From positions 1 through 64,000 of the forward strand of contig NZ_BCTL01000034.1 in NCBI RefSeq assembly GCF_001571265.1: a stretch of DNA of 64,000 nt. The letters are read 5' to 3'. The translations under genes and the position numbers were made by a program. Below the pieces are notes generated by a model, which saw only the letters and a program-made list of their open reading frames with translations, did not search any database and was not told the origin of the DNA. Below, in pieces: positions 58,690-63,114 of this stretch. Position 1 is the stretch's first letter; the number at the start of each line of letters is the position of its first letter. This DNA comes from Cedecea neteri NBRC 105707 = ATCC 33855 (lineage in GTDB: Bacteria > Pseudomonadota > Gammaproteobacteria > Enterobacterales > Enterobacteriaceae).

Positions 58690-58824
58690 TGACAGAACGC
58701 CGCAAATTATTATTACCACGCGAAGTTCATTGTACATACCGTTACACAGCAACGCTCATCATCAAGGGGGAGGCTGGTATATAGTGCAGCGATACACAGG
58801 GATGATTTGTTGTGTTGAGACAAA

Positions 58825-58870: not shown

Positions 58871-60010
58871 ATGAAAATCAAAAATACTCTCTGCCTACAT
58901 ATCCTGATGGCGCTGCTTGCCGTTCTGGTCTTATGCGTTCCGGCCCTGGTGACGGGCTTGTCCACGCCGCTAACATTCCAGCCGTTGATTAAATCGATGG
59001 AAGGCACGGCGAAAGAACAAAAAGAGAAAATTGCGACAATTTCCCATGCATTACAAGGCAATGCATTATTTTTCCTCGGCGCTTCTGAGGTTTCGACATC
59101 CGAAGATGAACATTACGCTGTATATAATTACTTTAATAAGCAATTACATCAGCCGGTGGTGGCCTACGGGGATAGTTATGTCGATAACATCACACAGTTC
59201 CTGCTGCTCTCACGTTTTAAAAACGATATAAACGCAAACAGTAAAATTGTTCTGCTGTTTGCCCCGGACAGCTTTTATTTTGACACAATTCCTCCGGCTA
59301 TTTTTGCCGATCATTTCCCGGCGGCTATTTTTAACCCGCTGATAGCGGATGAAAAAGCGCGTCCGTTCCTGGTCAATTACTTACATCATATTGATGAAGA
59401 GGACATTAGTCATTTAACCCTGGGTGAAATGAAAATATACGGCTGGCAGCCAAAAGTTATTTGGCAGTCCGTTAATTATGAGTTTGCTAACTTCTGCACC
59501 CTGGTAAAAAACCACTGGCTGGCGCGGCTGCGCATTGCGCCTGAACCTCATCGCCCGTGGCCGGCTCCCGCAGAAAAGTACGCCGCCCCGGACTGGAACG
59601 AACAGCTGGCCCATGCCCGCGTATTGAACCAGGTTCGTCAGGAAAGCGCCGCCACATTGTGGATGGACAAAAGCGTTTACGAAGACGGGAAAACGGCGGA
59701 AGAGTGGTATGAAACGCCGGTAGTAAACCGCCAGATGGAAGCCTTCAAGGCCAGCATCGATCTGCTTAAATCTCGCCACGCCCAGTTTGTGGTCATCGTC
59801 GATCCGCTTAACCCGTGGGCGCTGAAAAATACGCAAAAGTTCCAGCCCGTTGACCGCCAGATCAGGGCATACCTGGAGCAAAACCAGGTGCGTTATTTCG
59901 ATATGTACGCCCAGCCTTACCAAAACGGCTGGAACTGGGATCGCCTGCATCCTACCGAGCTGGCGTGGGTTGCCATGGACCGCTTTATTGCCGAGAGCTT
60001 TACACGATGA
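58871..60010 (+). CDS. dltD: DltD-like D-alanyl transfer protein
   Basis: Transfers D-alanine to the final acceptor on the outer face of the inner membrane in dlt systems. The 379-aa protein has one N-terminal signal anchor (residues 7-30). An SGNH-hydrolase fold follows, with the nucleophile Ser72 in FFLGASEVSTS (family GSSE) and Asp357/His360 in DRLHPTELAW. The complete catalytic set suggests activity. It is the first gene of dltD-X-B-A-C, whereas Gram-positive operons usually place dltD last. The start has a poor Shine-Dalgarno. The acceptor in this Gram-negative is unknown. Confidence 0.87.
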   Translation: MKIKNTLCLHILMALLAVLVLCVPALVTGLSTPLTFQPLIKSMEGTAKEQKEKIATISHALQGNALFFLGASEVSTSEDEHYAVYNYFNKQLHQPVVAYGDSYVDNITQFLLLSRFKNDINANSKIVLLFAPDSFYFDTIPPAIFADHFPAAIFNPLIADEKARPFLVNYLHHIDEEDISHLTLGEMKIYGWQPKVIWQSVNYEFANFCTLVKNHWLARLRIAPEPHRPWPAPAEKYAAPDWNEQLAHARVLNQVRQESAATLWMDKSVYEDGKTAEEWYETPVVNRQMEAFKASIDLLKSRHAQFVVIVDPLNPWALKNTQKFQPVDRQIRAYLEQNQVRYFDMYAQPYQNGWNWDRLHPTELAWVAMDRFIAESFTR

Positions 60011-60126
60011 AAACTGCCGTTCGCCTGTTTGTGCTTTACCTCTTGCTGGCAATCACCGTGGTGGCGTGGTCTTCCGTGGACGACAGCATGAGTATCAAAG
60101 TGCATTTTGAATATCAAAAATTCTGA
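60007..60126 (+). CDS. dltX: DltX-like small membrane protein
   Basis: A 39-aa protein encoded between dltD and dltB and overlapping the dltD stop by 4 bases (ATGA). Residues 5-21 form one membrane helix (VRLFVLYLLLAITVVAW). The C-terminus FEYQKF (34-39) is exactly the FxYxxF motif conserved at the end of DltX proteins, whose Tyr is needed for D-alanine transfer. Position, size, single helix and motif agree, so this is almost certainly DltX, although its length lets gene finders miss it. AAGGA of the next gene overlaps its end. Confidence 0.85.
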   Translation: MKTAVRLFVLYLLLAITVVAWSSVDDSMSIKVHFEYQKF

Positions 60127-60136
60127 AGGATGAATG

Positions 60137-61255
60137 ATGTATAGCTCAGGGGCATTTTTTTTCTTTCTGTTTTCATCGGCACTGCTGTTTGCGCTGGTTA
60201 ACCGCGTATTGCATTACCGGCTTACCTATTTAGCCGCATTCTCCGTGCTCGCGGCGTTGGCCTGGGGATATATCTTCCAGGGTGATTATCTGGTTCCGGT
60301 AGCGGTATTCTTTGCGTTTTATCTTCTTGTCACGCTGAAAGAGAAAGGCTGGCTAAAAACCTGGCAAGCAGTCAGCCTGACGCTGCTGCCGCTATTACTG
60401 GTGAAGTTACACCTGAATAATCACTGGGGCATGATTGGCCTGTCGTTTATGACTTTCCGCGCCATTGACGTGCTGCTTTACCGCAGCAAAAAAGATGGCC
60501 AGAACTTTTTGCATTATTTCTGCTATCTGTTTATGCCGTTTATTATTCTCGCGGGCCCGATGTACCGCTGGAGAACCTGGGTCGGCGATATTAATAAGCC
60601 GGTATTCAGGCTCACCCGCGAACAGTTTTTATTGGCCGTGGAGCAAATCGTCACCGGCGTCGTACAGAAGTTTTTATTTGCGATGCTGATCGACAACCTG
60701 GTGATTGAGTCCTGGAGTCACCGACCGTTCACCCTCACCGTCGGCGTGGTGATGTCGATAGCCTACAGCGCCTATCTCTATTTTGATTTTGCGGGCTACA
60801 GCAACATGGCCATCGGCGCCGGACGGCTGTTTGGTCTGAATATTCCGGCTAACTTCAATATGCCGATTCTGGCCAAAAACCCGCAGGACTTCTGGCGCCG
60901 CTTCCACATCAGCCTGTCTGAGTGGCTGCGCGACGTGGTCTTTATGCCGATTTACATGAATCTGATGAAGCTCGATTTCTTCCGTCAAAATAAAACCCTG
61001 GCACAGAACGTGGGCATCTTCTGCACGCTCTTTTGCATGGGGGCCTGGAACGGGCTTGAACGACACTACGTCATCAGCGGCGCGCTTTTCGGCGCCATTT
61101 CCGTTGCCCACAACATGCTGCTTTGGTTCGCCAAACGCAGCCCGGCCTTGAGTAACGGGTTACGCCATCCGGTTATCGCGTTTTTTGGACGAATTCTGAC
61201 GCTGGCAAGCGCCGCGGTCTCCCTCTACATCTTTAGTGGAATGTCACCTCTATGA
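60137..61255 (+). CDS. dltB: DltB-like MBOAT O-acyltransferase
   Basis: Moves D-alanine from the DltC carrier across the inner membrane. A protein of about 372 aa with about 11 helices and the MBOAT core FWRRFHISLSEWLRDVVFMP. Start at 60137 (spaced 6 from AAGGA) or 60134; numbering here counts from 60134. His258 of RRFHIS is kept, but the usual WHG catalytic motif reads GAWNGLERH, so the conserved His is Asn306 (codon AAC, one base from CAC). A His follows at 311. Whether it is active, shifted or degenerate is open. It overlaps dltA by 4 bases. Confidence 0.87.
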   Translation: MYSSGAFFFFLFSSALLFALVNRVLHYRLTYLAAFSVLAALAWGYIFQGDYLVPVAVFFAFYLLVTLKEKGWLKTWQAVSLTLLPLLLVKLHLNNHWGMIGLSFMTFRAIDVLLYRSKKDGQNFLHYFCYLFMPFIILAGPMYRWRTWVGDINKPVFRLTREQFLLAVEQIVTGVVQKFLFAMLIDNLVIESWSHRPFTLTVGVVMSIAYSAYLYFDFAGYSNMAIGAGRLFGLNIPANFNMPILAKNPQDFWRRFHISLSEWLRDVVFMPIYMNLMKLDFFRQNKTLAQNVGIFCTLFCMGAWNGLERHYVISGALFGAISVAHNMLLWFAKRSPALSNGLRHPVIAFFGRILTLASAAVSLYIFSGMSPL

Positions 61256-62685
61256 ACCTTCATCCAGAGCTTCAGGAACTGCAGGATTTTCTGCGCGCGG
61301 CATTACTAGACCCCGCGCGCCCAAACCAGTTAGCCATCAGCGGCAGCGATACCGCCCTGACCTGGCAACAGCTTTCCGTCGCCGCAACCGACTGGGCACA
61401 GCGCTACGCGAAGTGCGAACAGCCCGCCGGCACGCCGGTGGTTTTATACGGGCATCAGCAGGCCGAATTTGCCGTGGCAATTTACAGCTGCCTGCTGCAC
61501 AACATCCCTTATATTCCGGTGGACTGCATCTATCCGCAGGAGCGGCTGAAAGAGATTTGTCAGCTTGCCAGCGCGCCCTACTATTACGACGTCGTGGCAA
61601 AACAGTTTGTGGCGACCGGCGAAACCGCCAGCGTGCTGGCCGAGCCCGATCTTGCCTATATCATGTTTACTTCTGGCAGCACCGGGAAACCGAAAGGCGT
61701 GCAGATTGGCCGCGAGAGCCTGTGGCACTTCATGAAGTGGGTGCGCGAGGACTTTGCGCTGCCGGACGTGCCGGTGTTAATGAACCACGCGGTGTTCAGC
61801 TTTGACCTTTCCCTTATTCCTCTGCTGGCGAACCTCGCCACCGGCGGGCACATTGTGCTGAACGCCAAGGAAGATATAGCCGCTGAAAACTGGCTTGAAC
61901 GCCTGAAAAGCAACGAGGTTTCGGCCTGGGTTTCCACGCCTTCTTTTGCTTATCAGAAGCTGCTTTCCCCGCAGTTCAGCGCTGAGTATTTGCCCGCGCT
62001 GAGCGTGTTTGTGTTCATTGGCGAAGTGCTGAATAAGGCGCTGGTAAAACAGCTGCGCCGCCGCTTCCCGCAGGCCAAAATCCTGAATTCCTATGGCCCG
62101 ACGGAGGCGACTATCGCCACCACGGTGATTGAAATCACCGACGAGATCCTGCACAGCGAAAACGACGTGCTGCCGGTGGGCACCATGATGCCGGAGTCCA
62201 GAATGGAAGTGACCTCAGAAGGTGAGCTGATTATCTGGGGGAAAAACGTCATGCGTGGTTACCTCGGCCTGCCGCAGGAAAACGCCGCGAAATTGCTGCG
62301 TCGCGAAAGCGAGCAATATCGGGGCTACCGGACCGGCGATCTCGGCTACGAAGACGGGCTGCTGTATTGCCAGGGCCGTAACGACAGCCAGATCAAGCTG
62401 AACGGCTACCGCATTGAAATCAACGAAATTGAAAACCGCCTGCTGGCGATGTCCGGCATTAGCGAAGCCGTAGTGCTGCCGCTGATGAAATCCGGCGGCG
62501 GCGTGCTGCGCATTGCGGCGTTCTGCGTCACCGGCCTGGCGCCGGAGGCTATCAAAACGTCACTCGCGAAAGTGATCCCGCCTTATATGGTGCCTTCGCA
62601 AATCATTATTAAAGACGCTTTGCCGCTGAACCCTAACGGCAAAATCGACCGCAAGCTGCTGGATACCCAGGCTCGCACGAATTAA
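61252..62685 (+). CDS. dltA: DltA-like D-alanine:carrier ligase
   Basis: Activates D-alanine with ATP and loads it on the phosphopantetheine of DltC. The 477-aa AMP-binding protein has the phosphate loop FTSGSTGKPKGVQ, the A5 motif NSYGPTEATIATT, the A7/A8 motifs YRTGDLG and GRNDSQIKLNGYRIEINEIE, and the C-terminal catalytic Lys in NPNGKIDRKLL. It is collinear with Gram-positive DltA (about 500 aa), slightly shorter. D-Ala specificity is inferred from family and context; other small amino acids cannot be excluded. Start and stop overlap both neighbours (ATGA before, TAATG after). Confidence 0.88.
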   Translation: MNLHPELQELQDFLRAALLDPARPNQLAISGSDTALTWQQLSVAATDWAQRYAKCEQPAGTPVVLYGHQQAEFAVAIYSCLLHNIPYIPVDCIYPQERLKEICQLASAPYYYDVVAKQFVATGETASVLAEPDLAYIMFTSGSTGKPKGVQIGRESLWHFMKWVREDFALPDVPVLMNHAVFSFDLSLIPLLANLATGGHIVLNAKEDIAAENWLERLKSNEVSAWVSTPSFAYQKLLSPQFSAEYLPALSVFVFIGEVLNKALVKQLRRRFPQAKILNSYGPTEATIATTVIEITDEILHSENDVLPVGTMMPESRMEVTSEGELIIWGKNVMRGYLGLPQENAAKLLRRESEQYRGYRTGDLGYEDGLLYCQGRNDSQIKLNGYRIEINEIENRLLAMSGISEAVVLPLMKSGGGVLRIAAFCVTGLAPEAIKTSLAKVIPPYMVPSQIIIKDALPLNPNGKIDRKLLDTQARTN

Positions 62686-62702
62686 TGACCCAGGAAAAAA
62701 AG

Positions 62703-62921
62703 ATGGAACAAGAAATTCTCGCCCTGTTTGAAAAAGTGTTATCCCGCAAGGTCGGCTTTAACGATGAGCTGATCGAGTCCGACATTCTCGACTCTATTTT
62801 GGCCGTTGATTTGGTACTGGAAGTGCAGGACGTGTACGGCTGCATGATCCCGCCGACGGAAGTCGCCACGGTGCTGAAAACCCCGGCGGATCTGGCACGT
62901 TATATTGAAGAGAACCGCTAA
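62703..62921 (+). CDS. dltC: DltC-like D-alanyl carrier protein
   Basis: A small acyl-carrier-type protein that receives D-alanine from DltA on a phosphopantetheine arm. The product is 72 aa from the ATG at 62703, which has AGGA seven bases upstream; an in-frame ATG at 62685 overlaps the dltA stop and would give 78 aa. The attachment Ser is in ILDSILAVDLVLEVQ (Ser31 from 62703, Ser37 from 62685), within the DSI/L motif typical of DltC. Acidic helices flank it. It closes the operon and is followed by palindromic repeats. Confidence 0.88.
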   Translation: MEQEILALFEKVLSRKVGFNDELIESDILDSILAVDLVLEVQDVYGCMIPPTEVATVLKTPADLARYIEENR

Positions 62922-62945
62922 TCCCAACATTCGGGAATCGTTCTG

Positions 62946-62980
62946 CCCCTCACCCCGGCCCTCTCCCAAAGGGGAGAGGG
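62946..62980. repeat. Intergenic palindromic repeat, 3' of dltC, copy 1
   Basis: CCCCTCACCCCGGCCCTCTCC, AAA loop, GGGGAGAGGG. The same family as 155-191 and 6850-6885. Confidence 0.7.
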
Positions 62981-63064
62981 AGAAAGGAGTAGGCAGGGAA
63001 CACGATTTATCCCTCGCCCCCTTCAAAGCTAGAGGGAAAAGAAGCAGCGCAAAACGCTTTTTAT

Positions 63065-63100
63065 CCCCTCTCCCTTTCAGGGAGAGGGTTAGGGTGAGGG
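63065..63100. repeat. Intergenic palindromic repeat, 3' of the EAL gene, copy 2
   Basis: CCCCTCTCCCTTTCAGGGAGAGG followed by GTTAGGGTGAGGG, in inverse orientation to 62946-62980. A degenerate CCCTCGCCCCC segment at 63012-63040 lies between the two copies. Confidence 0.7.
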
Positions 63101-63114
63101 TAAAAAGTGCGGAT

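Follow-up and report, generated by a model that had tools for sequence, protein, structure and literature searches.

The described system closest to the locus considered here is an operon of the soft-rot enterobacteria Dickeya and Pectobacterium, reportedly named dltDXBAC by Pandin 2016. Earlier work on these organisms covers both the operon and a likely part in resistance to peptides: in Dickeya, dltBAC is induced in aphids, and polymyxin kills 99% of a dltB mutant (PMC3544676; this and the other PMC articles are cited from excerpts). Many Gram-positive bacteria attach small amino acids to their envelope and thereby withstand antimicrobial peptides. For the Gram-positive dltXABCD system, an acyl-shuttle mechanism of DltX and DltD has been described, with an FxYxxF tail as the shuttle motif of both DltX and PatA, and in MBOAT–SGNH pairs such as PatA–PatB the SGNH protein similarly receives the acyl group from the MBOAT protein by way of a tyrosine shuttle (PMC12148441). 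In Vibrio cholerae, the lipopolysaccharide (LPS) aminoacylation operon almEFG, which puts glycine on lipid A, is under the control of the RstA-like CarR (PMC9178039). The present analysis concerns an intact operon, dltD-dltX-dltB-dltA-dltC, at positions 58871–62921 on the + strand of a 64,000-nucleotide (nt) stretch of Cedecea neteri NBRC 105707 (contig NZ_BCTL01000034.1; this whole stretch is called the window). The operon is likely to encode a divergent Gram-negative Dlt-type pathway that puts an aminoacyl ester on the envelope and is probably controlled by RstA. It has Asn in place of the catalytic His of DltB, an altered substrate pocket in DltA and an RstA-box-like element in its promoter region.

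The present operon and the Dickeya and Pectobacterium dltDXBAC operons have the same five genes in the same order, with DltB proteins that are 86–92% identical in their best segments; the loci examined in these two genera also have the exact promoter box, the DltB Asn (Asn306) and the same type of DltA pocket. Their chromosomal neighbours differ, and no essential difference was found. Neither the box nor the two enzyme changes are mentioned in the excerpts of the Dickeya literature (PMC3544676, PMC5541007), and no report of the three was found in the literature searched. The Gram-positive dltXABCD operons have the same parts, including the DltD triad, the DltC serine, the FxYxxF end of DltX and the core of DltA, but they differ from the present operon in gene order and in having His rather than Asn in DltB and Cys rather than Ile in DltA. 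AlmEFG includes an adenylating enzyme and a carrier, and AlmG is a different kind of acyltransferase. The likeness to AlmEFG lies in the attachment of an amino acid to the envelope and, probably, in RstA-like control, whereas the operon here uses MBOAT, DltX and SGNH proteins; no AlmG-type acyltransferase was found among the five proteins by Pfam or NCBIfam. PatA uses an acetyl-CoA donor and carries its own FxYxxF tail, whereas here the tail is on DltX, DltB ends in LYIFSGMSPL without such a tail, and Asn replaces His in DltB.

All five parts were identified by profile or motif, which bears out the original prediction of a complete Dlt-type set for activation, carriage, export and transfer in an enterobacterium, as well as the dltD-first order, D-X-B-A-C as against the Gram-positive dltXABCD. 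Residues were compared with Gram-positive rows (five DltB, of which one, L099, is a lone dltB adjoining a bacteriocin gene; four each of DltA, DltC and DltD; two DltX), and are called kept if they occur in all Gram-positive rows and in 95% or more of the enterobacterial ones. dltD (58871–60010) encodes a 379-residue SGNH-type transferase (Pfam DltD, 6.8e-21) with Ser72, Asp357 and His360, which are common to the enterobacterial rows and the four Gram-positive DltD proteins. A sequence search of the PDB with DltD gave no match; with its structural model (predicted local distance difference test, pLDDT, 78), all 12 PDB matches at E ≤ 0.001 were DltD crystal structures, with template modelling scores of about 0.5. 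dltX (60007–60126), read from the ATG at 60007, encodes a 39-residue microprotein with the C-terminal FEYQKF, including Tyr36. Given as a 53-residue frame, it had no match in the Pfam and NCBIfam library scans, and it was recognised from its position and its FxYxxF end. Its Phe34, Tyr36 and Phe39 are common to the two Gram-positive DltX proteins, and the motif is present in all 50 aligned enterobacterial DltX rows (window counted) and in 2/2 Gram-positive ones. dltC (62685–62921) encodes a 78-residue carrier protein (PF00550, 6.8e-9; NCBIfam NF003464, 8.7e-6) with the phosphopantetheine Ser37 in an LDSI motif; Asp36 and Ser37 are kept (4/4 Gram-positive DltC), as are Asp185 and Lys464 of DltA. 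Together with His258 of DltB, described below, these residues give each station of the Gram-positive relay a counterpart in this operon.

The set is divergent, as no member attains its own, Gram-positive-based NCBIfam cut-off: scores against cut-offs are 197/375 bits for DltB (TIGR04091, 7.4e-58), 383/476 and 373/560 for DltA (NF003417, 1.8e-114), 26/68 for DltC and 50/150 for DltD. A Pfam scan of the DltB protein returned no family, although a genome-wide search with the Pfam MBOAT model did match DltB, at 3.3e-9 and above its cut-off. All five genes are under purifying selection, with ratios of nonsynonymous to synonymous substitution rates (dN/dS) of 0.026–0.109 against locus L036, the lowest being that of dltB. 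The operon is a Gram-negative variant of Dlt: Dlt-like by function, it fails two defining residues as well as the NCBIfam cut-offs. Adjacent genes overlap by 4 nt (dltD/dltX), 4 nt (dltB/dltA) and 1 nt (dltA/dltC), and dltX and dltB are 7 nt apart, so that the earlier description of five tightly overlapping genes holds for three of the four junctions. Downstream of dltC, at 62940–63110, lies a palindromic intergenic repeat (CCCTCTCCC/GGGAGAGGG) that recurs at many scattered places in genomes of the genus.

The first of the two defining residues is in dltB (60134–61255), which encodes a 373-residue MBOAT-type protein. The catalytic His has been described as universal among MBOAT proteins, and both PatA and DltB need it (PMC12148441); it has also been called invariant in a study that describes an aromatic cluster in the DltB active site (PMC11035591). 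Asn306 of the present DltB corresponds to His336 of the Streptococcus thermophilus protein in an alignment to PDB entry 6bug that has no gap around this site (MGAWNG vs MGFWHG). In a first set, Asn was found in 50/50 enterobacterial DltB rows (the window, two plasmid copies and 47 named loci, with L034, L082 and L083 excluded as partial or broken) and His in 5/5 Gram-positive rows. Because this set was partly picked by a peptide that carries Asn (FCMGAWN, one of the two patterns of the named scan, which favours Asn306), the residue was recounted on loci chosen by DltD, from 36 family-search and three genus-search genomes, some of whose contigs are the same as named-scan loci. W-N-G was present in all 39, among them a broken copy and two Photorhabdus-like loci whose DltB is 48% identical. 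Other MBOAT proteins had His in 23/23 cases, comprising one plasmid MBOAT and 22 of the 30 loci fetched from an order-wide search in which 88 genomes matched; the remaining eight of the 30 are Dlt-type. In a DltB tree, 19 enterobacterial and five Gram-positive proteins group apart from these 23 (support 100/99, with a long-branch warning). As judged from the aligned sequences, the change to Asn is an old one that has become fixed across the Dlt-type loci examined in this family. Other parts of the active site are kept in the alignment (Phe219, Tyr222, Trp254, His258 and Trp305), and His258, which corresponds to S. thermophilus His289, is present in 50/50 enterobacterial and 5/5 Gram-positive rows. 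Since the DltB model is too poor for use (pLDDT 54), the Asn306 assignment is one of alignment.

The second residue is in dltA (61252–62685), which encodes a 477-residue ligase of the amino-acid-adenylating type whose best PDB match is Bacillus cereus DltA (3fcc). In that enzyme, the methyl group of D-alanine is held by a Leu, Met200 and Cys268, the Cys selecting the enantiomer (PMC8972799); the same Cys is numbered 269 elsewhere (PMC4176424). The corresponding pocket of the window DltA has Leu186, Ile189 and Ile256, with Ile256 at the position of the Cys. Under what we take to be the correspondence of DltA residues to the ten code positions of nonribosomal peptide synthetases (NRPSs), the code is DLISVISIAK in the window and DLIS(V/I)I(S/A)(I/V)AK for the remaining D-X-B-A-C rows (two overlapping sets, of 48 and 35), as compared with DLM(S/G)(L/V)CTVAK in four Gram-positive rows and DLYSLCTVAK in two Photorhabdus-like rows. 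The D-alanylation of the original prediction is weakened by the sequence, as Ile256 replaces the Cys and neighbouring pocket residues differ. By overall similarity D-alanine is still the most likely substrate, though not a certain one, and the sequence no longer vouches for it.

The Photorhabdus-like operon (genomes G1071 and G1013; loci L133 and L134) is informative on the relation between the two changes. Its DltB has Asn at the catalytic position and falls in one clade with the enterobacterial DltB, but its genes are in the order C-D-X-B-A and its DltA pocket is Gram-positive-like, with Cys. Both enterobacterial lineages therefore carry the DltB change, and only the D-X-B-A-C one carries the DltA change; the two were probably separate events. 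L133 and L134 represent a second dlt lineage in the family, and the label Photorhabdus-like comes from a strong LuxE match.

Upstream regions of different genera have little in common except for a block from 58732 to about 58784 (window numbering). This block contains, on the + strand, a candidate operator, TACATACCGTTACA, with tandem TACA at 58733–58746, 124 nt upstream of the dltD start, and, 31 nt past it, a probable extended −10 element, TGGTATATA, at 58775–58783, proposed from the sequence. The candidate −10 occurs in most of 28 aligned upstream stretches, those of the Buttiauxella-like and g12 loci being without it, and a consensus promoter scan did not return it. Compared with the RstA box consensus from systematic evolution of ligands by exponential enrichment, TACATNTNGTTACA (PMC4117788), TACATACCGTTACA agrees at 11 of 12 fixed positions, with both TACA half-sites exact and C in place of T at position 7. 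Of the DltD-chosen loci, 37 have the D-X-B-A-C order (L135–L171); a relaxed pattern, TACATNNNGTTACA, is exact in 34 of them (counting L166, in which the box is exact and dltD is broken) and has one mismatch in the other three. The 5.2 Mb genome contains two exact occurrences of it, one in the dlt promoter and one upstream of a gene encoding Asr (Pfam, 1.2e-31), and none of the reversed control pattern; asr is an established RstA target (PMC4117788). A match to rstA was found in 34 of 35 D-X-B-A-C genomes, in one case with an inner stop; because rstA is also present in nine of ten dlt-negative genomes, its presence alone says little. In the two Photorhabdus-like genomes, the 400 nt upstream of dltC contain no such box, and a search for rstA gave no match at E ≤ 1e-90. 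No PhoP or PmrA box was found in the 28 upstream stretches of about 220 nt with the patterns that we assumed for these boxes. In the literature searched, papers naming both rstA and a dlt operon are, to judge from titles, on Enterococcus and Clostridioides and do not appear to link the two. The box and its conservation suggest that the dlt operon is probably controlled by RstA.

In the proposed mechanism, DltA would activate a small amino acid, most likely D-alanine, with ATP and load it onto the phosphopantetheine of DltC Ser37. DltB, as an inner-membrane MBOAT protein, would move the aminoacyl group through its tunnel onto Tyr36 of the DltX tail, acting without the usual catalytic His and probably using His258. 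DltX would then pass the group to Ser72 of DltD, which would esterify a hydroxyl group on an envelope molecule (LPS, or some other glycan or lipid that faces the periplasm), and the added positive charge would reduce the binding of cationic peptides. Transcription would start from the RstA-box promoter, in which case the operon should answer PhoPQ–RstBA signals (low Mg2+, acid and perhaps peptides). The order of the transfer steps and the peptide-resistance phenotype are carried over by analogy from the Gram-positive and Dickeya work.

A number of observations weigh against this scheme. DltB has Asn306 in place of a His on which DltB and PatA depend (PMC12148441), and Tyr216, Phe257 and Ser315 in place of S. 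thermophilus Phe247, Trp288 and Tyr345; DltA has Ile at the position of the D-Ala-selecting Cys. In Dickeya, a dltD mutant kept full wild-type resistance (PMC5541007, citing Pandin 2016), which fits poorly with an obligatory DltD step, and the dltB insertion studied there may have polar effects on dltA and dltC. As for control, Klebsiella pneumoniae asr is without the classic box (PMC4117788), both boxes in the present genome deviate at position 7, so that the strict consensus has no exact match, and genome G208 carries the box with no rstA match at E ≤ 1e-90. In addition, we estimate that chance would give about 1–2.5 relaxed-pattern matches in a 5.2 Mb genome. Two matches are close to this, so the count by itself carries no weight; what counts is the site of the second box and the conservation from genus to genus.

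These points bear on several alternatives. DltB might have no acyltransferase chemistry and serve as a channel or scaffold, with transfer to DltX proceeding without MBOAT catalysis, or the operon might have another role. This would agree with Asn306 at the invariant catalytic position in 39/39 DltD-chosen loci, with the need for that His in PatA and DltB (PMC12148441) and with the presence of Phe257 and Ser315 for S. thermophilus Trp288 and Tyr345; it is improbable, however, in that His258, Phe219, Tyr222, Trp254 and Trp305 are common to Gram-positive DltB, DltX Tyr36 and DltD Ser72 are kept, dltB has the lowest dN/dS of the five genes (0.026, against L036), and the Dickeya dltB mutant has a phenotype (PMC3544676), though possibly a polar one. 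It is possible, but can be held only tentatively, that the same pathway handles a small amino acid other than D-alanine, for example glycine, which AlmEFG puts on lipid A (PMC9178039). The best profile and PDB matches remain DltA enzymes of D-alanine, Asp185, Leu186 and Lys464 are kept, residue lists are poor predictors of substrate, and the NRPS positions used here are presumed ones; on the other side stand the departure of the D-X-B-A-C pocket code from both the Gram-positive and the Photorhabdus-like codes and the replacement of the enantiomer-selecting Cys268/269 (PMC8972799, PMC4176424). A bolder version of the pathway may also be considered, in which a Gram-negative Dlt branch has done without the "universal" MBOAT His, its D-X-B-A-C lineage has in addition switched amino acid, and a non-canonical aminoacyl ester is put on the envelope under RstA control, in parallel to AlmEFG; this is a speculative and rather doubtful proposition.

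The promoter element might instead be a site for ArcA or a different OmpR-family regulator. Pandin 2016 reportedly places Dickeya dltB under ArcA and describes its induction by polymyxin through an unidentified regulator. To this may be added the C for T at position 7 and the box-bearing genome G208 with no rstA match; nevertheless, a site for another regulator appears unlikely given the agreement with 11 of the 12 fixed positions of TACATNTNGTTACA, including both TACA half-sites, the location of the sole other exact relaxed-pattern match before asr, and the joint absence of box and rstA match from the two Photorhabdus-like genomes. As regards the acceptor, a Gram-negative host is not expected to make teichoic acids, and the original prediction had included a glycerophosphate polymer among the candidates. 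One such candidate is the phosphoglycerol added by OpgB to osmoregulated periplasmic glucans, which is chemically near the glycerophosphate of teichoic acid. The present genome has opgB (NF003000, 1330 bits), as do 21 of the 37 dlt-positive genomes above cut-off; however, 15 of the 37 have no match and one has a sub-cut-off match, all four Dickeya and all four Pectobacterium genomes of the set are among those with no opgB above cut-off (the four Dickeya genomes having no match at all), and seven of ten dlt-negative genomes carry opgB, so that there is no association between opgB and dlt. OpgB-made phosphoglycerol is thus very improbable as a general acceptor. LPS has been proposed as the acceptor (Pandin 2016, as cited in PMC5541007). 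Overall, a divergent Dlt-type pathway that esterifies an envelope molecule is preferred.

The original prediction had proposed mapping the operon by profile search, and such a search found dltD in 37/392 genomes of the family, spread over 12 of 154 genera, and in all eight genomes of the genus (own genome counted). In a sample of the phylum, dltD was over cut-off in six of 398 genomes, all from the same family; a seventh match was weak and adjoins an ordinary MBOAT gene with His. No near match was found among 20,395 Escherichia coli records (near mode only). The named scan gave 49 loci, from Pectobacterium, Dickeya, Kosakonia, Phytobacter, Buttiauxella, Cedecea, some Enterobacter and Lelliottia, Symbiopectobacterium and a few others. 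The operon is therefore not an isolated oddity, as the same genes in the same order are found in the genus and in these other genera, and the Dickeya genes are published (PMC3544676). The D-X-B-A-C order is kept in intact relatives, save for the two Photorhabdus-like genomes. Broken dlt genes were found in Symbiopectobacterium-type genomes, Enterobacter sp. EA-1 and Pectobacterium sp. PL152 (dltA only in the last), at L066, L079, L082, L083 and L166; the broken gene is dltA in L079 and dltD in L166.

Chromosomal neighbours of the operon vary between genera. Within the genus, comparison of gene clusters hinted at different sites in the window and in Enterobacter sp. Ag1; a mobile cassette inside the genus was rejected on DNA comparison, in which several of the seven other genus genomes have common flanks (a downstream EAL gene in four, the directly upstream stretch in three). 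A recent import from Gram-positives is likewise not supported, as the enterobacterial DltB proteins form one deep clade and all of the proteins score far under the Gram-positive-based cut-offs. Plasmid copies of the operon in Klebsiella and Enterobacter (L032, L033 and L034, the last cut by the record start) are flanked by insertion sequences and have 98.6–99.2% DNA identity to the Phytobacter diazotrophicus chromosome. L069, in a record labelled Chryseobacterium sp. 18061, is an enterobacterial dlt operon with enterobacterial neighbours; the record is probably mislabelled or the genome mixed. One of the genus genomes (G395) has a repeat of about 125 bp inserted at the end of dltD (L169:4655–4780), with a similar stretch upstream of dltC in L133; in appearance we take it to resemble an enterobacterial repetitive intergenic consensus element.

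The conserved His-to-Asn change in DltB contradicts the statement that the His is present in all MBOAT proteins (PMC12148441) and provides a natural test of MBOAT chemistry. For the soft-rot enterobacteria, two questions can now be put to direct test: which group is joined to which acceptor, and through which regulator the operon answers to peptides. The RstA-like box, which in this genome is common to the dlt operon and asr, would place envelope aminoacylation in the acid and Mg2+ response.

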